A DNA stretch of 52,445 bases from OCS155 cluster bacterium AG-426-D23 (GTDB lineage: Bacteria > Actinomycetota > Acidimicrobiia > Actinomarinales > Actinomarinaceae), in contig QCNO01000002.1 of NCBI GenBank assembly GCA_003213165.1, positions 138,868 through 191,312 of the forward strand. Reading direction: 5' to 3'. A model generated the notes under the pieces. The model had not been told where the DNA came from. It saw nothing but the letters and a program-made list of their open reading frames with translations, and made no database searches. The position numbers and the translations under genes were made by a program. This document shows, piece by piece, positions 19,919-28,950 of this stretch; position 1 is the first letter of the stretch, and every line of letters starts with the position of its first letter.

Positions 19919-21550
19919 ATGACAAGTGTTAAGGGACTAGGTGCTTCATTAGGTGTTGCAATAGGTTCATCATTTGTTTATGAAAATGAGATAGATTTTG
20001 ATAAAGAAGCAATTCTCACTTATGTTGAGGCTAGCAAACAACTGATTGAAAAATTTAGTTCTCAAATCGTTGATTTCCGCTCAAAAGAAAGAAATGATGA
20101 AGCTGATATTTTAGATGCATACATATTGATCCTTCAAGATCCTGAAATAGTAGATCAACTAAATCAAAATTTAGATTCTTCAGTCGAAGAGGTTTATAGT
20201 ATTTTTACATCCACTGCAAGTGTATTTGAATCAATGGAAGATGTTTATTTTAAGCAACGAGCTGAAGACATACTTTCTGTAGGAAAACACCTTGTTTTCA
20301 ATATGCAAAATGTTGAAAGAGAAATTACTTTAAACGAAAACACTATTTTAATCGCTGAGGACTTAACACCAGCAGATACATCATCAATGGATTTGAGTAA
20401 AGTTAATGGAATTATATTAAAAGAAGGAGGGTTTACTTCGCATGCTGTTATCGTTGCAAAGAATTTGGGTATCCCTTGCGTGATCGGCGTAAAAAGTTTG
20501 CTCGACAATATTGCAGATGGCGAGTTAATGACAATTGACGGTGATACGGGGAATATTGTTATTTCTCCAAGTGAGAATCAGATATCTGAATTAAAAGAAA
20601 AACAAGGCAATATAACAAAGTTGATTGATAATTTTACTAAAAAAAAGTACGAAGCATTAGGAGTAGAATTCAGAGTTAATATTGGTTCTTTAGAGGAGAT
20701 TATTTCATTTAATCATCCTTTTTTAAACTCTATTGGCTTATTTAGGTCCGAGTTTATATATTTAGACAACACAACCATTCCAACACTTGAGGAACAAACA
20801 AGGGTTCTAGAACAAATAACTCAAAAATTCACTGGAACAATTGTCTATAGAACTCTTGATATTGGAGGTGACAAACAAGTAGATTATCTGAATTTACCTT
20901 CAGAAGAAAACCCCTTTCTTGGCGTAAGGGGTATTAGATTATTGTTGGATGATATTGAACTATTTGACACACAAGTAAAATCAATCTTAAATTCTAAATC
21001 ATTAGGAAGAGTAAAAATCATGTTTCCAATGATTTCTACTATAGAAGATTTTATAAAAGCAAAAGAGTTTGTTGCTAAAATAGCGAATAACTTAAATGTT
21101 GAAGTTCCTCCACTCGGTATCATGGTAGAGACACCCTCGTCAGCTTTGATTGCTGATAAGTTTTCAGAAATTGTTGATTTCATATCTATTGGCACCAACG
21201 ATTTGACGCAGTACATTATGGCTGCAGACCGTGGCAACAATAATTTAAGCCCTTACCAAGACCCACTTCATCCAGCTGTACTTAGGGCAATTTCTAATGT
21301 AATTGATTGTTGTAATGCAAATAATACCGAGGTGTCAGTATGTGGTGAAATGTCGTCAGATCCCGTCTCAGCATTTGTTTTATACATTTTAGGTTTAAAG
21401 ATATTTAGTATGGCACCTTCTGCAGCTCCTTTTGTATTTGATGCTTTAGATACACACTCAAAAATTAACAAACAAAAAATAAAAGATCAGATTTTACAAA
21501 AGAATAATGCTGACGAGGTTAGAACGATTATTCAAGAAATTTTAAGTTGA
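19919..21550 (+). CDS. ptsI: PTS enzyme I (phosphoenolpyruvate-protein phosphotransferase)
   Basis: 543 aa, slightly short of the usual 570. The phosphorylated His is His175 in EGGFTSHAVIVAKNLGIPCVIG; the PEP-binding domain shows GLFRSEFIYLD, YRTLDIGGDKQ, FLGVRGIRLLL, GIMVETPSSA, SIGTNDLTQYIMAADR and Cys475 in VCGEMSSDP. It moves phosphate from PEP to HPr. It is the first gene of the polyol-PTS cluster and its TGA overlaps the TTG start of the ispD-like gene. Having EI next to the permease suggests a dedicated PTS. Confidence 0.97.
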   Translation: MTSVKGLGASLGVAIGSSFVYENEIDFDKEAILTYVEASKQLIEKFSSQIVDFRSKERNDEADILDAYILILQDPEIVDQLNQNLDSSVEEVYSIFTSTASVFESMEDVYFKQRAEDILSVGKHLVFNMQNVEREITLNENTILIAEDLTPADTSSMDLSKVNGIILKEGGFTSHAVIVAKNLGIPCVIGVKSLLDNIADGELMTIDGDTGNIVISPSENQISELKEKQGNITKLIDNFTKKKYEALGVEFRVNIGSLEEIISFNHPFLNSIGLFRSEFIYLDNTTIPTLEEQTRVLEQITQKFTGTIVYRTLDIGGDKQVDYLNLPSEENPFLGVRGIRLLLDDIELFDTQVKSILNSKSLGRVKIMFPMISTIEDFIKAKEFVAKIANNLNVEVPPLGIMVETPSSALIADKFSEIVDFISIGTNDLTQYIMAADRGNNNLSPYQDPLHPAVLRAISNVIDCCNANNTEVSVCGEMSSDPVSAFVLYILGLKIFSMAPSAAPFVFDALDTHSKINKQKIKDQILQKNNADEVRTIIQEILS

Positions 21551-22227
21551 AAGTACATTCTATTCTTCTAGCTGGTGGCTCTAGTGACAGATTTAATAAT
21601 GAAGAAAACAAAGTTTATTTTCCAATTGGCGGCAAGCCAGCACTTTCCTGGCCACTAGAGACCCTAGATAATTCCGATAAAGTTGACTCAATAATATTGG
21701 TTGTAAGGGATGAAGACTGGGAAAAAACTAATAATGTAATTCAGCTAGTTAATCCCAAAAAATTATCTGGTGTAACAATTGGTGGGAACACTAGACATGA
21801 AAGTGAATATCAAGGACTTCTTTATCTAAAAGAAAGACCAGACATAAATGAAGAAGACCTAATTTTAATTCATGATGGCGCAAGACCATTGTTACCTAGT
21901 TATTTGTTAGATGAGCTTATTGATGTTGCAAAAAAATATGGAGCTTCAGCTCCTGGGTATAACTCAGATAATCTTATGAAAAAACAGGAATTTAACAAAG
22001 AAGAAATCCAAGAAACAATCGTAGAGATACAAACTCCTCAGATATTTCCAGCTTCAGAACTTTGGAAATCCTATGAATTAGCAAAATTAGATAAATGGCA
22101 AGCAGTAGATACAACAGAATGCGTATCAAAATATTCTGAGCTTGAGGCAGTAGTAATTCCTGGTGATCCAAGAAACATGAAGGTAACTTTTATAGAAGAT
22201 ATCTTTAAACTTGAGGAAATGATTTAA
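21547..22227 (+). CDS. ispD: IspD-type cytidylyltransferase (CDP-methylerythritol synthase or pentitol-P relative)
   Basis: 226 aa, typical IspD length. It opens with the nucleotide loop LLAGGSSDRF and a conserved Lys in ENKVYFPIGGKPAL, then LIHDGARPLLP, IQTPQIFP, DTTECVS and GDPRNMKVTFIEDI, the MEP-binding C-terminal block (family: NxKVTxPEDL). IspD joins CTP and 2-C-methylerythritol 4-phosphate (MEP) in isoprenoid synthesis; close relatives (TarI) use ribitol 5-phosphate. Start is TTG overlapping ptsI by 4 bp, so it is translationally coupled to a PTS gene, which is unusual. Confidence 0.8.
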   Translation: MKVHSILLAGGSSDRFNNEENKVYFPIGGKPALSWPLETLDNSDKVDSIILVVRDEDWEKTNNVIQLVNPKKLSGVTIGGNTRHESEYQGLLYLKERPDINEEDLILIHDGARPLLPSYLLDELIDVAKKYGASAPGYNSDNLMKKQEFNKEEIQETIVEIQTPQIFPASELWKSYELAKLDKWQAVDTTECVSKYSELEAVVIPGDPRNMKVTFIEDIFKLEEMI

Positions 22228-22319
22228 AAAAACCATAAAAACAGGCATTTCTAAATCAAAAATGGTTACATTATTTTTAAGATTTCGGGTTTTTACCAAA
22301 ATTCGAAGAATCATTTATG

Positions 22320-22325
22320 TAGAAT
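22320..22325 (+). promoter_or_regulatory. Possible internal promoter before gutM
   Basis: The 129-bp gap between ispD and gutM contains TATG followed by TAGAAT (22320-22325), a possible -10 region about 31 nt before the gutM start, and an AAGGA ribosome binding site at 22346-22350. No matching -35 is evident. It could separate expression of ptsI-ispD from the permease genes. Confidence 0.3.
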
Positions 22326-22356
22326 TAAAGTAACTATTTAAGTTGAAGGATGGAAG

Positions 22357-22770
22357 TTGTTATCTAGTTCACCATATGCACTTGGTGTCATATTTGTAAC
22401 ACTCGCACTTATGTGGGTTTTACAGATGTATCTTGCTAAAAAACAGGCTACTGGTTTCTTAGATGCAGTAAACAGCATTAAAGGACCTGGCTTGGAAGTC
22501 GCTATAGGTGTAAATCAACCTAAATGGGGGAGAAAAAAAATCTATCTAGCAATCTCTGCTGATGTAAATTCAACCATTGTTAACGGTCTTACTCTGGAGG
22601 GGGTAACTACTTTTGCAAAAAGTAAAAAAGTTTCGTTATTTAATGGCAAAACATTAAATGAAATTGCTAACTCAGAAAACAAAGAACCTATCTGGGATGC
22701 TGCCAAAATGGCAGCTGACACTTTGATAAAAAAACTTCAAAGTAAAGCAGATAGTAATTCGACAAATTAA
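22357..22770 (+). CDS. gutM: GutM/SrlM-family glucitol operon activator-like membrane protein
   Basis: 137 aa. One N-terminal membrane helix (LGVIFVTLALMWVLQMYLA) precedes a conserved domain: GPGLEVAIGVNQPKWGRKKIYLAISAD, VNGLTLEGVTTFAKSKKV and a tail. This is the order seen in E. coli GutM (GRFKPRVVVAIALD...LIMKGLTVFAR). GutM is called an activator but is membrane-anchored, so an accessory role in the PTS is possible. The start is TTG at 22357 with AAGGA 6 nt upstream; the upstream ATG is out of frame. It precedes srlA by 18 bp. Confidence 0.85.
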   Translation: MLSSSPYALGVIFVTLALMWVLQMYLAKKQATGFLDAVNSIKGPGLEVAIGVNQPKWGRKKIYLAISADVNSTIVNGLTLEGVTTFAKSKKVSLFNGKTLNEIANSENKEPIWDAAKMAADTLIKKLQSKADSNSTN

Positions 22771-22788
22771 TTATAAGGAGGGGGAGAT

Positions 22789-23331
22789 ATGGATGCTTTG
22801 GTAGCAGGCGCAGAAGCCTTTATCCAAGTATTTAGAACCGCTGCTGATGTATTTGTTGGTTTCACAACTGGAATTATTCCAATTGTGGTTGTGTTCTTGA
22901 CTGCAGTTAACGCTTTAGTCAAGTTCATCGGTGAGGAAAGAGTTGAGGGCTTTGCAAAATGGGCTTCTCAAGAAGGGGCACTTTACATGCCTGTTCGTTA
23001 TACTCTTTTACCGTTTGTAGCTGTATTTATGCTTACTAACCCAGTTTGCTATACATTCGGTACCTTTTTGCCTGAAAAACATAAACCAGCATTTTATGAT
23101 TCAGCAGTAAGCTTTGTTCATCCCATTACAGGAATTTTTCCACATGCGAATGGTGGAGAGTTATTTGTATGGTTAGGGATTGCAGCAGGTGTAGAAATAG
23201 TTGCACCAGATATGGTAACTGCTTTAGCAGTTAGATATCTTCTTGCTGGCCTTGTAGTCATATTAATTAGAGGTATCGTAACTGATATTATCTATAACAT
23301 TATGACGTCAAGAAGGGCAGGTGTTGAATAA
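22789..23331 (+). CDS. srlA: PTS glucitol/sorbitol-family permease EIIC subunit
   Basis: 180 aa, matching SrlA length. GIIPIVVVFLTAVNALVKFIG, MPVRYTLLPFVAVFMLTNPVCYTFGTFLPEKHKPA (residues 64-98) and FVHPITGIFPHANGGELFVWLGIAAG are EIIC-Gut hallmarks. A very strong AAGGAGG ribosome site precedes the ATG. It forms the membrane channel with the next gene product. The family substrate is a polyol, classically glucitol; specificity cannot be read from sequence. The stop and the next ATG overlap (TAATG). Confidence 0.93.
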   Translation: MDALVAGAEAFIQVFRTAADVFVGFTTGIIPIVVVFLTAVNALVKFIGEERVEGFAKWASQEGALYMPVRYTLLPFVAVFMLTNPVCYTFGTFLPEKHKPAFYDSAVSFVHPITGIFPHANGGELFVWLGIAAGVEIVAPDMVTALAVRYLLAGLVVILIRGIVTDIIYNIMTSRRAGVE

Positions 23332-23855
23332 TGCAAGCTTTAATAGAGAGAATTGGTCGATCAGTTGGTGGCGTGGTTGGAACATTGTTCCAAGCAGGTC
23401 GAGATGCTGTTGACCTATGTTTAAAAACAATAATTCCATTTATGGCATTCGTTACTTTTGTCATTGGTTTAATTTTAGAAACCGGTGTTGGTGACGCTAT
23501 TGCAAATGGTATTAAAGGTTTTGCAAGCAGTTTAGGCGGATTAATGATAGTTTGTATCATATGCGCAATACCTGTTTTATCACCACTACTAGGACCTGGT
23601 GCAGTAATTGCTCAGATCGTTGGTGTATTAATTGGTACTGAAATTGGACGTGGAAACATTGATGTTTCAATGGCGCTTCCAGCTTTATTTGCAATTAACC
23701 CACAGGTTGGTTGTGACTTCGTACCGGTTGGTCTGGCTCTTGGTGAAGCAGAACCGGAGACAGTTACGGTTGGTGTTCCAGCAGTTCTAACAAGTAGAAT
23801 GATTACTGGACCAATCTCAGTCGTTGTTGGTTATTTATTTGCACTAGGTTTGTAA
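23331..23855 (+). CDS. srlE: PTS glucitol-family EIIC2 subunit (C-terminal half of SrlE as a separate gene)
   Basis: 174 aa, equivalent to the membrane half of E. coli SrlE. It has hydrophobic helices and the motifs FVTFVIGLILETGVGDAIA, LSPLLGPGAVIAQIVGVLIGTEIGRG, and the strongly conserved QVGCDFVPVGLALGEAEPET. In E. coli EIIB and this domain are one protein; here they are two genes with EIIB downstream, separated by a hairpin. It starts at ATG overlapping the srlA stop. Confidence 0.9.
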   Translation: MQALIERIGRSVGGVVGTLFQAGRDAVDLCLKTIIPFMAFVTFVIGLILETGVGDAIANGIKGFASSLGGLMIVCIICAIPVLSPLLGPGAVIAQIVGVLIGTEIGRGNIDVSMALPALFAINPQVGCDFVPVGLALGEAEPETVTVGVPAVLTSRMITGPISVVVGYLFALGL

Positions 23856-23881
23856 AGACATAACTTAACAATTTTTAAATT

Positions 23882-23913
23882 TGTAACGCTCTGACTAAAA
23901 TCAGAGCGTTACA
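23882..23913 (+). terminator. 13-bp perfect hairpin with T-run inside the PTS operon (attenuator/terminator-like)
   Basis: TGTAACGCTCTGA (23882-23894) pairs perfectly with TCAGAGCGTTACA (23901-23913) around a 6-base loop CTAAAA, followed by TATTTTT (23914-23920). It sits in the 77-bp gap between the EIIC2 and EIIB genes, the largest gap inside the gutM-lipoyl gene run. It could terminate part of the transcripts or stabilise the upstream mRNA, so that membrane subunits and EIIB are made in different amounts. An AGAGGAG ribosome site follows directly. Confidence 0.75.
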
Positions 23914-23932
23914 TATTTTTAGAGGAGAAACT

Positions 23933-24310
23933 ATGGCAGATTATAAAAAAGTAAAAGTAGAAGCAGGGCCAAGTGGTTGGGGAGGCCCTTTAGAAATACA
24001 ACCAACTGATGAAAAAAAATACATTGTTTGTGTTACCGGTGGAGGAATTCATCCAGTTGCTCAAAAAATTGCTGATTTAACTGGGGCGGAAGCCTTTGAT
24101 GGTTTTAAATCATCACCAGAGGGAAGCTTTAAAGCAATGGCTTGTGCAGTAATTGATTGTGGAGGAACTGCGAGAATCGGTGTATATCCTATGAAGGGCG
24201 TACCAACGATTGATATTCATGACACTACACCAGCAGGTCCACTCGCCCAATTTATTAAAGAAGAGAACTTTGTTTCTGGAGTTTCTGAGGATCAAGTTAC
24301 TGAAGCTTAA
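23933..24310 (+). CDS. srlE: PTS glucitol-family EIIB subunit (N-terminal half of SrlE as a separate gene)
   Basis: 125 aa. It matches the N-terminal domain of E. coli SrlE: KVEAGPSGWGGPLEIQP, GGGIHPVAQKIADLTGAEAFDGFK, AVIDCGGTARIGVYPMKGVPTIDIH and GPLAQFI...VSGVSEDQVT. Cys76 in VIDCGG is the expected phosphocysteine; Cys71 is nearby. It passes phosphate from EIIA to the sugar. The stop overlaps the EIIA start (TAATG). Confidence 0.92.
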   Translation: MADYKKVKVEAGPSGWGGPLEIQPTDEKKYIVCVTGGGIHPVAQKIADLTGAEAFDGFKSSPEGSFKAMACAVIDCGGTARIGVYPMKGVPTIDIHDTTPAGPLAQFIKEENFVSGVSEDQVTEA

Positions 24311-24669
24311 TGCAAATTTATTCTTCAGAAATAGTAAGAATAGGCGAACAAGCTAATTTATTTTTAGATGAAGGAATTGTAGTTTTTTTCGGTGACAATG
24401 CACCAGAGGAACTTCAAGATTTTGCAGTCATACATAAACTAGAGCAAATCTCTGGTGAAATTGTAGTTGGAACAAAAATAAGTCTTTCAGACTCTAATTT
24501 AGAAGTTGTTTCTGTAGGGCCTGTAGCTAATGAAAACTTTAAAAATTTGGGTCACTTAGTTTTAAAACTCGATTCTTCAACTGAAGAAGCACAGCTTGGA
24601 GACGTCAGGTGTACATTTGATAACAAACCGAATATAAAAATTGGGGATAATTTAAGGATAAACAATTGA
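24310..24669 (+). CDS. srlB: PTS glucitol-family EIIA subunit
   Basis: 119 aa, same length class as SrlB. IVRIGEQANLFL, an FFGDNAPEELQDFAVIH block with the active His42 (E. coli His43), GTKISLSD, VSVGPVANENFKNLGHLVLKLD are the family landmarks. It receives phosphate from HPr and gives it to EIIB Cys76. Translation is coupled upstream by TAATG and downstream by TTGA overlap with the oxidoreductase gene. Confidence 0.93.
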   Translation: MQIYSSEIVRIGEQANLFLDEGIVVFFGDNAPEELQDFAVIHKLEQISGEIVVGTKISLSDSNLEVVSVGPVANENFKNLGHLVLKLDSSTEEAQLGDVRCTFDNKPNIKIGDNLRINN

Positions 24670-25919
24670 ACTATACAGAACTATTAATTGCTCGTGAAAA
24701 AGACTTAGGTAGACCAGTAAGAGTTGGGTTGGCTGGTGCTGGCCAAATGGGCTCCGGTCTTGCTGCACAAATTGGGAAAATACCAGGAATGAGCCTTGTC
24801 GCTTGCGCTGATATAGATATTGGAAGAGCTGAGAATGCATTACGTCTTGCTGGAGTTGAGTATGTAAAACACAACAAGGAGGCGTCAAAGTCTATCGAAA
24901 GCGGACAAGGTGGTGTAGTAGATAATGCATCTGCTCTTGCAGAACTACCAATAGATATTGTATTTGAAGCAACTGGTGTGCCATGGGTTGGTGCGGAGGT
25001 TGCTGATGCCTGTATTGAAGCACAAAAACATATACTCATGTTAAATGTAGAGACAGATGTCACAATAGGGATGTATTTAGCAAACAAAGCAAATAAAAAT
25101 AATGTAGTTTATAGTGTTGCAAATGGTGATGAACCAGTTGCATGTAAAGAGTTATATGACTTCTCAGTGGATTTAGGTTTTGAGATAGTGTGTGTTGGAA
25201 AAGGAAAAAACAACCCACTAGATCAAACTGCAAACCCTGATACCTGTTTAGAAAAAGCTACTAAGAAGAATATGAATCCAAAAATGCTAGCAAGTTTTGA
25301 AGATGGTTCAAAAACTATGATTGAAATGACTGCTTTGGCAAATGCAATAAATTTACCACCAGATCAAATCGGAATGAATGGACCAGTAAGTTCTGTAGAG
25401 GAATTGAACAAAGTTCTTATCCCTCAAGCTGATGGGGGTGTTCTAAGTGAATCTGGAAGAGTTGACTATGCATTTGGACCAGCACCTGGAGTATTTTCTA
25501 TTGTGAAATCGGATAACCCAACTGTTATTGAAGAAATGGAGTATTTGTCTATGGGAGAAGGTCCTTATTACACTCTTTACAGGCCTTATCATCTAGCTTC
25601 AATTGAAGCACCTAGAAGTATTGGGATGGCTATCATAAATAATGAACCCGGCTTACAACCAAAATCATGGATTGCAGAAGTTATTGGTCATGCAAAAAAA
25701 GACCTAAAAAAAGGTGAAAAGATTGATGGAATTGGAGGATTTGCCACATACGGTGTAACTTACCCTGTTGCAGATACAGATAATTTAATTCCACTTGGCT
25801 TATTAGAAGGTGCAACTGTTATTAAAGAACTAAAAAAAGGAGAACCAATAACAAAAGATTCAGTTGAACTTCCAGAAAATTTAATTAATAGCTTAAGAAA
25901 ACTTCAAGAAGCTAGTTAA
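24666..25919 (+). CDS. COG4091 homoserine-dehydrogenase-like oxidoreductase with C-terminal SAF domain (DXP reductoisomerase-like, DRL family)
   Basis: 417 aa. A Rossmann loop GLAGAGQMGSG (GAGQMG 24-29) follows a short leader; then ATGVPWVGAEVA, LNVETDVTIGMYLA, GKGKNNPLD, GSKTMIEMTALANA, YYTLYRPYHLASIEAP and a C-terminal SAF-like domain (about 343-410, with IPLGLLEGATVI). From memory, these blocks closely parallel Brucella DRL, an alternative enzyme converting 1-deoxyxylulose 5-phosphate to methylerythritol 4-phosphate. The same COG also includes proteins of unknown, possibly polyol-related function. Start is TTG overlapping EIIA. Its place behind a polyol PTS and with an ispD-like gene supports a polyol-phosphate substrate. 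Confidence 0.8.
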   Translation: MNYTELLIAREKDLGRPVRVGLAGAGQMGSGLAAQIGKIPGMSLVACADIDIGRAENALRLAGVEYVKHNKEASKSIESGQGGVVDNASALAELPIDIVFEATGVPWVGAEVADACIEAQKHILMLNVETDVTIGMYLANKANKNNVVYSVANGDEPVACKELYDFSVDLGFEIVCVGKGKNNPLDQTANPDTCLEKATKKNMNPKMLASFEDGSKTMIEMTALANAINLPPDQIGMNGPVSSVEELNKVLIPQADGGVLSESGRVDYAFGPAPGVFSIVKSDNPTVIEEMEYLSMGEGPYYTLYRPYHLASIEAPRSIGMAIINNEPGLQPKSWIAEVIGHAKKDLKKGEKIDGIGGFATYGVTYPVADTDNLIPLGLLEGATVIKELKKGEPITKDSVELPENLINSLRKLQEAS

Positions 25920-25929
25920 ATAGTCTTTA

Positions 25930-26889
25930 ATGACACTTAGTACAACCACTCAATTAGAACTTCATCGAATGATGATGCTGATTAGGTTGTTTGAGGAAGC
26001 ACTAGAAGAAATGTTTTCAAGAGGCTTGCTCCATGGGACCATGCATCTATCTATAGGTCAAGAAGCTACAGCAGCTGGTGCGTGTTTAGCTCTTCAAAAA
26101 GATGACTTAATTACTTCAACACACAGAGGGCATGGACATTGTCTTGCAAAAGGAGCCGAACCTTACAAGATGTTTGCAGAGTTACTTGGAAGAGAAGATG
26201 GATATTGTAGAGGCCGTGGTGGCTCAATGCATATTGCTGATTTGTCAAATGGCAATCTTGGTGCCAATGGAATTGTCGCTGGCAGTTTAACAATTTCTGT
26301 TGGGGCAGCTTTATCATTCCAAATGCAAAAAAAAGACAATATTATCCTTTGTTTCTTTGGAGATGGAGCGGTTAATGAAGGCTCATTTCATGAGGCTTTA
26401 AATTTAGCATCGCTATGGAGTCTTCCAGTGTTATTTTTATGTGAGAATAATCAGTATGGAATGTCAATGGCAACTGACAAAGCGGTTGCTGGCGACTCAA
26501 TTGCATCCAGAGGAAATTCTTATGGAATAGAGAGTATTCAAATTGATGGTAATGATGTCGAGGCTGTTTATGAAAATGTATTAAATTTTAAGAATAAAAT
26601 TTTATCGTCTGGGGGCCCAAAATTTATTGAAGCAGTTACATATCGCTATAGGGGACACTCAAAATCTGATAGAAACTTATACAGAACAAGTGATGAAATT
26701 GAATATTGGAAAGAAGAAAAAGACCCTATAAAAAGATACATTGGAAAATTAATTGAGTCTGGAATTAGTGAAGATCAATTAAAAGATATTGATACAGATA
26801 TTAAGGATTTAATCAGAAAATCGGTTAAGCAGGCATTAGATTCTCCGCTCAGTCCGATAACAAATTTAGAAGAGGATTCGTATGCCTGA
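25930..26889 (+). CDS. Thiamine-diphosphate 2-oxo/acetoin dehydrogenase E1 alpha subunit
   Basis: 319 aa, AcoA/PdhA size. FSRGLLHGTMHLSIGQEATAAG, THRGHGHCLAKG, GREDGYCRGRGGSMHIAD and the ThDP motif GDGAVNEGSFHEALNLASLWSLPVLFLCENNQYGMS (GDG to NN, residues about 140-175) are clear, as is YRYRGHSKSD. The heterotetrameric type is like acetoin or pyruvate dehydrogenase, not the homodimeric AceE common in actinobacteria. It decarboxylates or cleaves a methyl-ketone substrate on ThDP and reductively acylates a lipoyl group. It overlaps the beta gene by 8 bp. Confidence 0.93.
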   Translation: MTLSTTTQLELHRMMMLIRLFEEALEEMFSRGLLHGTMHLSIGQEATAAGACLALQKDDLITSTHRGHGHCLAKGAEPYKMFAELLGREDGYCRGRGGSMHIADLSNGNLGANGIVAGSLTISVGAALSFQMQKKDNIILCFFGDGAVNEGSFHEALNLASLWSLPVLFLCENNQYGMSMATDKAVAGDSIASRGNSYGIESIQIDGNDVEAVYENVLNFKNKILSSGGPKFIEAVTYRYRGHSKSDRNLYRTSDEIEYWKEEKDPIKRYIGKLIESGISEDQLKDIDTDIKDLIRKSVKQALDSPLSPITNLEEDSYA

Positions 26890-27865
26890 GTTAACAACTG
26901 GACAGGCACTAAATAAAGCCCTTAGTTTGATATTAGAACAAAACCCTACAGCGTTTATTGCTGGTGAAGATATTGGAATTTACGGCGGTGCCTTTGGAGT
27001 TACCGATGGACTCCTAGCTCAATATGGTGAGGAGAGAATTAAAGACACTCCAATTGCTGAAGATGTCATCGCAGGTTTAGCTGTTGGAGCATCAATGACA
27101 GGCGGAAAGCCTATTGTTGAAATGCAGTTTAGTGATTTTATTGTTAATGCAATGGATCCAATTGTTAATCAAGCTGCAAAGCTTCATTTTATGTATGGCG
27201 GATCGGTAAATGTACCAATAATCGTCAGAGGCGCTAGTGGAGCTGGGACAGGGGCCGCAGCACAACATAGCCAGTCACTCGAATCATGGTTTTGCCATGT
27301 TCCAGGATTAAAAGTAGTCACACCTTCAAATCCTCAGAATGCTTATGATCTATTGCTACATTCTTTTGTGGATCCTAACCCAGTTATTTTTATGGAACAT
27401 AAGTTAATATATAAAATCAAAGACAATGTAGAACTTAGTGATATTCCCGAGGAATCAAGCATGTTGGGTAAAGCAAATCTTGTTAAAGAAGGAAATGACA
27501 TGACAATAGTTGCCTACTCAAATATGGTAAATGTTGCAAAAGAAGCATTAGCTGCTGAGGAATTACAAAATTGTTCAATTGAACTAATTGACCTTCAGAC
27601 AGTTTCACCAATAGATTACGATACTATTAAAAATTCACTCAAAAAAACAAAAAGACTTTTAGTTTGTCAGGAAGCTCCTTCCAATAGTTCTGTAGGAACA
27701 ACCGTAATTTCAAAAATTGTTGAAAGTGAGTTATTTCATGAACTTGAGGTTGCTCCAAAGCTGGTCTCAGGATTACATTCACCCATGCCCTCTGCAAAAC
27801 ATCTCGAATTAAATGTTATTCCCCAAGCTGAAGACATTACTAATGCAGTCAAAAGTATGTTATAA
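26882..27865 (+). CDS. Thiamine-diphosphate 2-oxo/acetoin dehydrogenase E1 beta subunit
   Basis: 327 aa. The pattern ALNKALSLILEQ, GEDIGIYGGAFGVTDGLLAQYGEERIKDTPIAE, GGKPIVEMQFSDFI, GAGTGAAAQHSQSLESWF and a C-terminal transketolase-C domain (ELIDLQTVSPIDYDTI) is that of E1 beta. It completes the ThDP site with the alpha subunit. The gene overlaps alpha by 8 bp and is followed after 8 bp by a lipoyl-domain gene. Confidence 0.93.
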   Translation: MPELTTGQALNKALSLILEQNPTAFIAGEDIGIYGGAFGVTDGLLAQYGEERIKDTPIAEDVIAGLAVGASMTGGKPIVEMQFSDFIVNAMDPIVNQAAKLHFMYGGSVNVPIIVRGASGAGTGAAAQHSQSLESWFCHVPGLKVVTPSNPQNAYDLLLHSFVDPNPVIFMEHKLIYKIKDNVELSDIPEESSMLGKANLVKEGNDMTIVAYSNMVNVAKEALAAEELQNCSIELIDLQTVSPIDYDTIKNSLKKTKRLLVCQEAPSNSSVGTTVISKIVESELFHELEVAPKLVSGLHSPMPSAKHLELNVIPQAEDITNAVKSML

Positions 27866-27873
27866 ATATATAT

Positions 27874-28146
27874 ATGGCAAAAGAAAAAATTCAATTACCG
27901 GCAATGTCTGATCAAATGACAGAAGCTGAAATTTTAAGTTGGAAAGTTGACGTTGGTTCAAAGATTGAAAAGGGTGCCACGATATGTGAAATTTCTACTG
28001 ACAAAGTTGATATGGATCTAGAATCACCTTACTCCGGAGAAATTACTGACTTAGCATGTGAAGAGGGTGATATAGTAAATGTTGGTGACACAATAGCTGA
28101 AATAGAAACTGAAGAAGACAGTCTTTTAGGTTCAATATTCGATTAA
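27874..28146 (+). CDS. Stand-alone lipoyl-domain protein (E2-like without catalytic domain)
   Basis: 90 aa consisting of one biotinyl/lipoyl domain: IQLPAMSDQMTEAEILSWKVDVG at the start, the lipoylation site Lys44 in STDKVDMDLESPYSG, and VGDTIAEIETEED near the end. Acyl-carrier domains of E2 enzymes normally continue into an E3-binding and a large acyltransferase domain; here a stop follows at once. The TMEA-like DQMTEAEI form is the lipoyl, not biotin (AMKM), type. It should take the acyl group from the adjacent E1; the E2 core and E3 must be elsewhere if needed. Confidence 0.88.
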   Translation: MAKEKIQLPAMSDQMTEAEILSWKVDVGSKIEKGATICEISTDKVDMDLESPYSGEITDLACEEGDIVNVGDTIAEIETEEDSLLGSIFD

Positions 28147-28530
28147 TCAGCAGTTGCTGTAGGTAGTAATCTTAATGTATTCCTGAGTTTCTTCCTTAAC
28201 AAAAACTCCCGATTTATGCACACAAGAAGAATTAAGCGCAACACTTTCTTTTACTATTAAATCGCAATTTACATTTAAATTTTCATAAACTTTCTTGTAA
28301 TAATTTAAACAATCATTAATTTTTTTCTCGGCGTTATTTTTATTTTGTTGAGATAACGTAATCACGATGTTTTCATTTGTGATTTCAATATTTTCTGGAT
28401 CAATATAGAAAGTTTCTTCATATAGGTTATCAAGTGTATTGCTTGTTTCAGTAGTTAAAAAACCTGATGCACTTGAGGAAATAATTGCTAAAAAACCTGC
28501 CCCCAGAAGGATATAAATTAAATTTTTCAT
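28147..28530 (-). CDS. Hypothetical secreted protein with four mature cysteines
   Basis: 127 aa. An N-terminal hydrophobic segment (LIYILLGAGFLAIISSSASGF) is a signal peptide or anchor. The mature part is charged and has Cys in NDCLNYY, NVNCDLI, SSCVHK and at the C-terminus, perhaps two disulfides. No family recognised. It is convergent with the lipoyl gene and divergent from ptsH, so it interrupts the PTS gene run. Confidence 0.6.
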   Translation of the reverse strand: MKNLIYILLGAGFLAIISSSASGFLTTETSNTLDNLYEETFYIDPENIEITNENIVITLSQQNKNNAEKKINDCLNYYKKVYENLNVNCDLIVKESVALNSSCVHKSGVFVKEETQEYIKITTYSNC

Positions 28531-28536
28531 AAGTGA

Positions 28537-28542
28537 ATTATA
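28537..28542 (-). promoter_or_regulatory. -10 box for leaderless secreted-protein gene
   Basis: A perfect TATAAT on the minus strand ends 6 nt before the ATG at 28530. On the other strand TAATAT at 28610-28615 lies 8 nt before the ptsH ATG. Confidence 0.5.
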
Positions 28543-28623
28543 AAATGTCTTAATTCATCATAACTCTATATTCTGACAAATAGTGATTAAGAATTTATCG
28601 AATTATGACTAATATATTAAATC

Positions 28624-28950
28624 ATGGCAGTAGAAAAAAAATTTAGAATACTAATTTATCCTGGTTTGCATACTCGCCCGGGTGCTAAATTTGTAGAGTT
28701 ATGTAACAAGTTTGAAAGCGATATCGAAATTCTTTTTAACGATAAGGTTGCAAATGGCAAAAGTATTATCAACATAATGACCATGGCCGCGCCACAAAAT
28801 GGGGAAATAACGATAAAAGTTAATGGTGTTGATGAAGAAATATTAATTAATGAATTAACAGATTGGCATGTTGAGGCTCACAAGTCTAAGGAAGATTTTG
28901 ATAATTCACCAGACAAGCATGAGTTGCTGAAAGCTTTTGAAATAATTTAA
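28624..28950 (+). CDS. ptsH: PTS phosphocarrier HPr-family protein
   Basis: 108 aa, longer than the 85-90 aa norm. The active His16 is in GLHTRPGAKFVELCNKF and the conserved regulatory serine is Ser47 in ANGKSIINIMTMAA. A C-terminal tail of about 20 residues (HKSKEDFDNSPDKHELLKAFEII) is extra. It carries phosphate from EI to EIIA. It is separated from the main PTS operon by one opposite-strand gene and probably has its own leaderless promoter. Confidence 0.93.
   Translation: MAVEKKFRILIYPGLHTRPGAKFVELCNKFESDIEILFNDKVANGKSIINIMTMAAPQNGEITIKVNGVDEEILINELTDWHVEAHKSKEDFDNSPDKHELLKAFEII

Follow-up and report, generated by a model that had tools for sequence, protein, structure and literature searches.

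A sorbitol-type phosphotransferase cluster with DXR-II, IspD and an acyloin-type dehydrogenase in Candidatus Actinomarina: a candidate module for methylerythritol phosphate and deoxyxylulose phosphate

What would a sorbitol-type sugar importer, two enzymes of isoprenoid synthesis and a thiamine diphosphate (ThDP)-dependent dehydrogenase do together in a tiny and very abundant ocean bacterium? The question is raised by a gene cluster at positions 19919-28950 of a 52,445-nucleotide stretch, called the window below, from OCS155 cluster bacterium AG-426-D23 (GCA_003213165.1, contig QCNO01000002.1, positions 138,868 to 191,312). The host genome is 0.96 Mb, 86% complete and belongs to the Candidatus Actinomarina (Ca. 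Actinomarina)/OCS155 lineage. The best reading, given a probability of about 0.6, is a reversible route in which 2-C-methylerythritol would be converted to 2-C-methyl-D-erythritol 4-phosphate (MEP), MEP interconverted with 1-deoxy-D-xylulose 5-phosphate (DXP), and DXP exchanged with acetyl and glyceraldehyde 3-phosphate (GAP). At the same confidence the cluster appears to be one member of a widespread module for handling MEP and DXP. No description of methylerythritol catabolism, or of a link between DXR-II, a phosphotransferase system (PTS) and E1, was found in the open-access literature.

For the substrates of the PTS and E1 and the direction of the route, we infer the following. The Gut-type PTS would import a branched polyol, with 2-C-methyl-D-erythritol the likeliest candidate, delivering MEP, which DXR-II would interconvert with DXP. 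DXP may then be split between C2 and C3 into acetyl-lipoyl and GAP by a dedicated E1 that is sister to acetoin dehydrogenase; acetyl-lipoyl would pass to acetyl-CoA through an E2, and in reverse the same E1 would make DXP. IspD2 would pull MEP into isoprenoid synthesis, and in Ca. Actinomarina the module, or its ispD-DXR-II core, would keep that synthesis running.

Whether dxs and dxr lie elsewhere, a question the original prediction left to a genome search, received the strongest answer of the analysis. Family models run over 42 Ca. Actinomarina genomes found DXR-I in none and no true match to DXS (best 32 bits), while IspG is present in 35 and DXR-II in 33; as positive controls, the DXS, DXR-I, IspD and IspG models matched at least 9 of 14 reference genomes. 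The chromosomal slot rpsB-tsf-pyrH-frr-cdsA-(dxr)-rseP-ispG-proS is conserved, with dxr cleanly gone in genomes G000 and G037 and still there in the class relative G069. Assembly incompleteness cannot explain this loss. Absence from draft or metagenome-assembled genomes (MAGs) is never final, but a count of 0 of 42 together with a clean, conserved dxr slot makes a strong case. Weak DXS_N matches in the genus (32 bits or less) were rejected as DXS, being transketolases or E1 save for two short split pairs. A split transketolase-like pair lies in each of two genus genomes, G010 (C8:17073-18148, 213 + 166 amino acids) and G020 (C3:33975-34720, 207 + 157 amino acids).

The host's own genome gives the same picture. 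When the whole genome was searched by tblastn with E. coli proteins as queries, DXS, DXR, AceE and SucA had no match, and the window IspD was the sole IspD. The lower pathway, which the original prediction also left to be located, is encoded elsewhere in the genome, with clear matches to IspF, IspG and IspH and a weak one to IspE. Across the genus, 32 genomes carry exactly one true IspD each, beside DXR-II in the loci examined; second IspD-like matches were discarded as GlmU-like frames of about 453-502 amino acids or nucleotidyltransferase-like frames of about 197 amino acids, with weak N-terminal matches. Like DXS and DXR-I, the canonical IspD is missing from all 42 genus genomes, so that, as far as these searches tell, Ca. 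Actinomarina retains nothing but DXR-II and IspD2 to serve the upper part of the MEP pathway. Compared with the canonical upper pathway (DXS, DXR-I, IspD), DXP, MEP and CDP-methylerythritol would be expected as shared intermediates and IspE to IspH are encoded away from the cluster, but DXS and DXR-I are missing and IspD is replaced by a divergent subtype.

Every gene that the original prediction had named in the cluster is borne out at its position by Pfam and NCBIfam, and the features are as follows.

19919..21550, + strand: ptsI, phosphoenolpyruvate-protein phosphotransferase (EI) dedicated to the cluster (TIGR01417, 424 bits, above cut-off; active site GGFTSHA)
21547..22227, + strand: ispD2, the genome's only IspD (PF01128, 112 bits)
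22357..22770, + strand: gutM, glucitol operon activator-like membrane protein (PF06923, 58 bits)
22789..23331, + strand: Gut-type PTS EIIC (SrlA) (PF03608, 223 bits; NF049923 above cut-off)
23331..23855, + strand: Gut-type PTS EIIC2, C-terminal half of SrlE (PF07663, 151 bits)
23882..23913, + strand: RNA hairpin of 13 bp, after EIIC2 and ahead of the ribosome-binding site of EIIB
23933..24310, + strand: Gut-type PTS EIIB, N-terminal half of SrlE (PF03612, 177 bits)
24310..24669, + strand: Gut-type PTS EIIA (PF03829, 101 bits)
24666..25919, + strand: DXR-II (DRL), predicted NAD(P)-dependent DXP/MEP reductoisomerase (PF21135, DRL_cat, 211 bits, plus SAF domain)
25930..26889, + strand: E1alpha, putative dedicated acyloin-type ThDP dehydrogenase (PF00676, 271 bits; module-only E1 clade)
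26882..27865, + strand: E1beta, partner of E1alpha (PF02779, PF02780; NF006667 above cut-off)
27874..28146, + strand: free lipoyl-domain protein of 90 residues (lipoyl-lysine motif STDKVD in the translation)
28624..28950, + strand: ptsH (HPr) (motifs GLHTRP and GKS)

Most neighbours overlap or sit less than 15 bp apart, with longer gaps of 129 bp ahead of gutM and 77 bp ahead of EIIB, and an opposite-strand open reading frame (28147-28530) stands between the lipoyl gene and ptsH. The motifs of the PtsI and HPr histidines, the E1alpha ThDP site and IspD are intact in the sequence, and related genomes keep the gene content and order of the cluster.

Could this be, as annotation by pathway would imply, an ordinary sorbitol PTS beside an ordinary pyruvate dehydrogenase (PDH) E1? 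The importer is indeed of the Gut/Srl type by the Pfam and NCBIfam families of its EIIC, EIIC2, EIIB and EIIA, with EIIBC split into two proteins, and mannitol and sorbitol uptake are listed for the order (PMC7771536). The E. coli glucitol/sorbitol operon shares GutM, EIIC, a split EIIBC and EIIA of the same families, the window EIIC, EIIC2 and EIIB parts being 41-53% identical to their E. coli counterparts. However, the window has DXR-II where SrlD stands in E. coli, and it carries its own EI and HPr as well as E1 and IspD. No SrlD-type sorbitol-6-phosphate dehydrogenase was found in the cluster, and the best SrlD matches elsewhere in the genome are only 26-30% identical. Moreover, E1 is present in 38 of the 41 DXR-II loci bearing a Gut PTS, and, as set out below, the genus has a separate E3/E1/E2 complex and the module E1 forms its own clade. 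An ordinary sorbitol system is thus very improbable and already disfavoured. The hairpin ahead of EIIB is kept in six genus loci or genomes with 96% of cells paired, variation being too low to reveal covariation, and is possibly an element of mRNA processing, stability or attenuation.

The oxidoreductase, for which a place in a non-DRL clade of COG4091 had been considered at the outset, is of the DXR-II type as judged by its residues and its position in the tree. It aligns with Brucella DRL (3UPY/3UPL) over 408 query residues at 351 bits and keeps G121, K191, K193, T229, R320 and Y322 (PMC3847144 numbering). A maximum-likelihood tree groups it with DXR-IIs of Nitriliruptorales and other Actinobacteria and leaves DLO-type relatives outside with support of 99/99, the DLO-type rows having been picked by residues and divergence rather than by published label. 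Rows of this type (L241, L242, L110, L112) deviate at 193 and/or 229. In published functional tests eleven DXR-IIs were active and four DLO proteins failed (PMC3847144), and the DXR reaction is described as reversible (PMC13001223). The Brucella abortus enzyme (PDB 3UPL, 3UPY) belongs to the same family with the same signature residues, and in both hosts DXR-II is the cell's only DXR-type enzyme. The two differ in that the window gene lies in a PTS/E1 cluster, and in that the window host lacks DXS while the Brucella genome tested (G131) has it.

The module E1 is best described from its phylogeny. In a concatenated E1alpha/E1beta tree, 47 module rows and one Clostridioides row form one clade (support 100/96) that covers seven named phyla or candidate phyla. 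Acetoin-type E1s from five reference loci, one adjoining a 2,3-butanediol dehydrogenase, form a separate clade (99/94), and the window E1 lies outside it. Two Pseudonocardiaceae genomes carry both kinds, one in each clade. As the module E1s keep to their own clade even in genomes holding both kinds, they appear to be a dedicated enzyme travelling with DXR-II. The Clostridioides row comes from a C. difficile plasmid record (L256, 7010-16957), where a sugar-binding regulator, E1alpha/E1beta, E2 and lpd lie beside a different PTS (IIA/IIB, sigma-54 type regulator); its E1 belongs to the module clade though no DXR-II is in view.

Nor is the window E1 the cell's only pyruvate dehydrogenase, an outcome that the original prediction had regarded as damaging. 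Most genus genomes have a transketolase and a separate fused E1, which is distant from the module E1s in the concatenated tree. G031 and G037 carry lpd, this fused E1 (668-675 amino acids) and E2 adjoining lipBA and tkt, a complete E1/E2/E3 set; in G000, contig C1 ends within the corresponding cluster. This separate cluster rules out the window E1 as sole PDH. Between E2 and transketolase, a single open reading frame joins lipB to lipA; it is 548 amino acids long in G000 (C1:846-2492, L034) and 542 in G037.

The acetoin dehydrogenase complex (AcoA/AcoB/AcoC/AcoL) is among the closest known systems. It likewise pairs E1alpha/E1beta with lipoyl or E2 proteins, its E1s form the neighbouring clade, and the same type of bond (CH3-CO/CHOH) would be cut by the module E1; in contrast, the module clade is tied to DXR-II and the window has a free lipoyl domain. 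DXP itself can be viewed as an acyloin built from GAP and a two-carbon unit. Given pyruvate and glyceraldehyde, the purified E. coli PDH yields deoxyxylulose, and DXP is formed in vivo by aceE mutants that stand in for DXS (PMC3424233). Given that DXP is an acyloin and given this precedent, action of an acetoin-type E1 on DXP in either direction is plausible by analogy.

How far does the unit extend? Scanning 84,980 species genomes yielded 80 DXR-II loci; counts of locus content use the 47 whose flanks reach 5 kb or more on each side. A Gut PTS is found in 41 of these, E1alpha/beta in 40 and both in 38, whereas five DLO-type loci have neither. Carriers of Gut PTS, DXR-II and E1 occur in Actinobacteria, Chloroflexi, Firmicutes, Spirochaetes and Alphaproteobacteria, and E1 also adjoins DXR-II in Methylomirabilota and Aerophobetes. 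In Terrarubrum the locus comprises a regulator, ptsP, Gut PTS, DXR-II, E1 and E2. The cluster is thus conserved as a unit across phyla, with an E1 clade of its own, a point on which its interpretation had been expected to turn. The Sinorhizobium and Agrobacterium loci hold a sugar-binding regulator, an ABC transporter, a sugar kinase (of the PfkB family in Agrobacterium), DXR-II, E1a, E1b, E2 and E3. Use of a transporter and kinase instead of the PTS suggests that the substrate is a free polyol, one that would be phosphorylated, then oxidised by DXR-II, then cleaved. A comparable logic is known from the D-apiose pathway with its apulose-4-phosphate transketolase, in which a branched sugar is likewise phosphorylated and handled by a split ThDP enzyme. 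That pathway differs in using an isomerase, a kinase and a transketolase, where the module has DXR-II and an acyloin-type dehydrogenase.

Is the module then catabolic or biosynthetic? Among 38 module-bearing genomes, DXR-I is found in 21 and DXS in 21; with DXR-I present, DXR-II would be redundant in these 21. A further 16 lack both DXS and DXR-I. Five of the 16 retain IspG (Thermovorax, Fervidicola, FC7 and two actinobacterial MAGs) and 11 lack it as well, including Terrimesophilobacter, Sediminivirga, Brachybacterium, Anaerolineales and Spirochaetaceae. Since these 11 have no DXS, DXR-I or IspG, isoprenoid synthesis cannot be the role of the module there. IspD stands in the module locus in 16 of 25 genomes with the MEP pathway versus 0 of 11 without it; two of the 16 are canonical, and the corrected contrast of 14/25 versus 0/11 gives a hypergeometric probability of about 0.001, calculated by hand and ignoring kinship. 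From this contrast, the module is probably catabolic where the MEP pathway is missing, and IspD2 would be a branch to isoprenoids where it is present. For the majority of bacteria the module looks catabolic.

The five genomes that retain IspG bear on a narrower explanation, in which the module serves biosynthesis only, in bacteria without DXS: E1 would make DXP from pyruvate or acetyl-lipoyl and GAP, DXR-II would convert it to MEP and IspD2 would carry it onward, the Gut PTS being a passenger that imports something unrelated. In Thermovorax, Fervidicola and Firmicutes FC7 (L249, L250, L251), dxr is missing between cdsA and rseP-ispG, no DXS was found and the DXR-II/E1 module is present. As they keep ispG and the module without dxr or DXS, these genomes form a second lineage with the Actinomarina pattern. 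HMG-CoA synthase (PF08540) had no match in five genus genomes or in the five other DXS-less, IspG-bearing genomes, though the model also missed Chloroflexi expected to use mevalonate. These patterns would fit biosynthesis, as would the DXP formed by the E. coli PDH mutants and the persistence of ispD-DXR-II where the Gut PTS is gone. However, the 11 genomes without DXS, DXR-I and IspG retain all or most of the PTS, DXR-II and E1, the rhizobia substitute a transporter and kinase for the PTS, and the half of the genus without E1 lacks DXS too. A purely biosynthetic role is consequently unlikely.

Within the genus the locus is variable. In clade A the order is ptsI-ispD-gutM-EIIC-EIIC2-EIIB-EIIA-DXR-II-E1a-E1b-lipoyl. 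In clade B the same chromosomal slot holds ptsI-ispD-DXR-II, YjbQ-like and redoxin-like genes, a mannitol-type PTS, an MtlD-like dehydrogenase and ptsH, and in G037 the locus is reduced to ispD-DXR-II followed by a YjbQ-like and a redoxin-like gene. The part that never varies is ispD-DXR-II, accompanied by a Gut-type PTS, a mannitol-type PTS or none. The class relatives G069 and G072 (L100/L101) have a full-length E2 at the position of the lipoyl gene, plus regulator-like genes. As about half of the genus lacks Gut PTS and E1, the constant function across the genus would be isoprenoid supply, with Gut PTS and E1 accessory or ancestral. The YjbQ-like and redoxin-like genes lie 3' of DXR-II in clade B (L113 10858-11972, L104 10979-12102), in the slot of clade A's E1/lipoyl genes.

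Several observations weigh against the reversible MEP/DXP route. In roughly one half of the genus, ispD-DXR-II occurs without E1alpha/beta and with either a mannitol PTS or none, and DXS is missing there too, so the scheme does not account for its DXP; the fused E1 of clade B is one candidate source, and the YjbQ-like/redoxin-like pair is a possible clue. Of the methylerythritol/DXP module first proposed, the DXR-II type, the conserved unit and the dedicated E1 have stood, but the scheme does not extend to this half of the genus. The window has a lipoyl domain without an E2 catalytic core, and the activities of the PTS and E1 in the module are predicted. The window DXR-II has N at H250 and I at V351, positions that are not absolute criteria, with four exceptions at 250 and conservation in "most" at 351 (PMC3847144). 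The Listeria and Ligilactobacillus loci combine DXR-II and Gut PTS with no E1 nearby. Lastly, IspD2 lacks T140 and R157 of E. coli IspD, which we take to be MEP-site contacts. R157 is replaced in every module IspD and T140 in nearly every one, while both residues are retained by the canonical IspDs of the same loci.

The missing IspD2 residues would also suit a different substrate, namely another branched or deoxy sugar alcohol (e.g. a hydroxymethyl-tetritol or 1-deoxypentitol) whose phosphate is the substrate of DXR-II, with E1 freeing glycolyl or acetyl from the resulting ketose phosphate. The PTS substrate of the module is a prediction, and the Ligilactobacillus locus would fit as well, having transketolase and fructose-6-phosphate aldolase in place of E1. 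This locus, on a Ligilactobacillus salivarius plasmid (L238, 9001-16572), hints at a different substrate or a different mode of product cleavage. Nonetheless, complementation tests show MEP formation by DXR-II members, among them the enzymes of Finegoldia and Chloroflexus, neither of which uses the MEP pathway (PMC3847144), and IspD2 is the only IspD in a genus whose own genome encodes IspE, IspF, IspG and IspH. A different polyol is therefore unlikely, and handling of MEP and DXP is preferred.

The reversible MEP/DXP module would bear on a puzzle about DXR-II. Its distribution is patchy and it is active even from bacteria without the MEP pathway (Finegoldia) or with mevalonate only (Chloroflexus) (PMC3847144), and no defining pattern has emerged even in a 2026 review (PMC13001223). 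These observations would be directly explained by a catabolic module, which also names a candidate substrate. Tentatively, and at slightly less than even odds, a DXS-free MEP pathway may operate in a marine lineage of high abundance and, independently of it, in certain thermophilic Firmicutes, drawing DXP or MEP from the reversible module by salvage of environmental methylerythritol or by an acyloin dehydrogenase working towards DXP, with MEP also serving as a carbon source in several phyla. If so, one of the ocean's commonest actinobacterial genera would make isoprenoids without DXS, DXR-I or a canonical IspD, relying on a scavenged precursor or an unrecognised DXP-forming enzyme. This would have a bearing on nutrient exchange in the ocean, on the logic of DXS and DXR as drug targets and on the engineering of terpenoid production.

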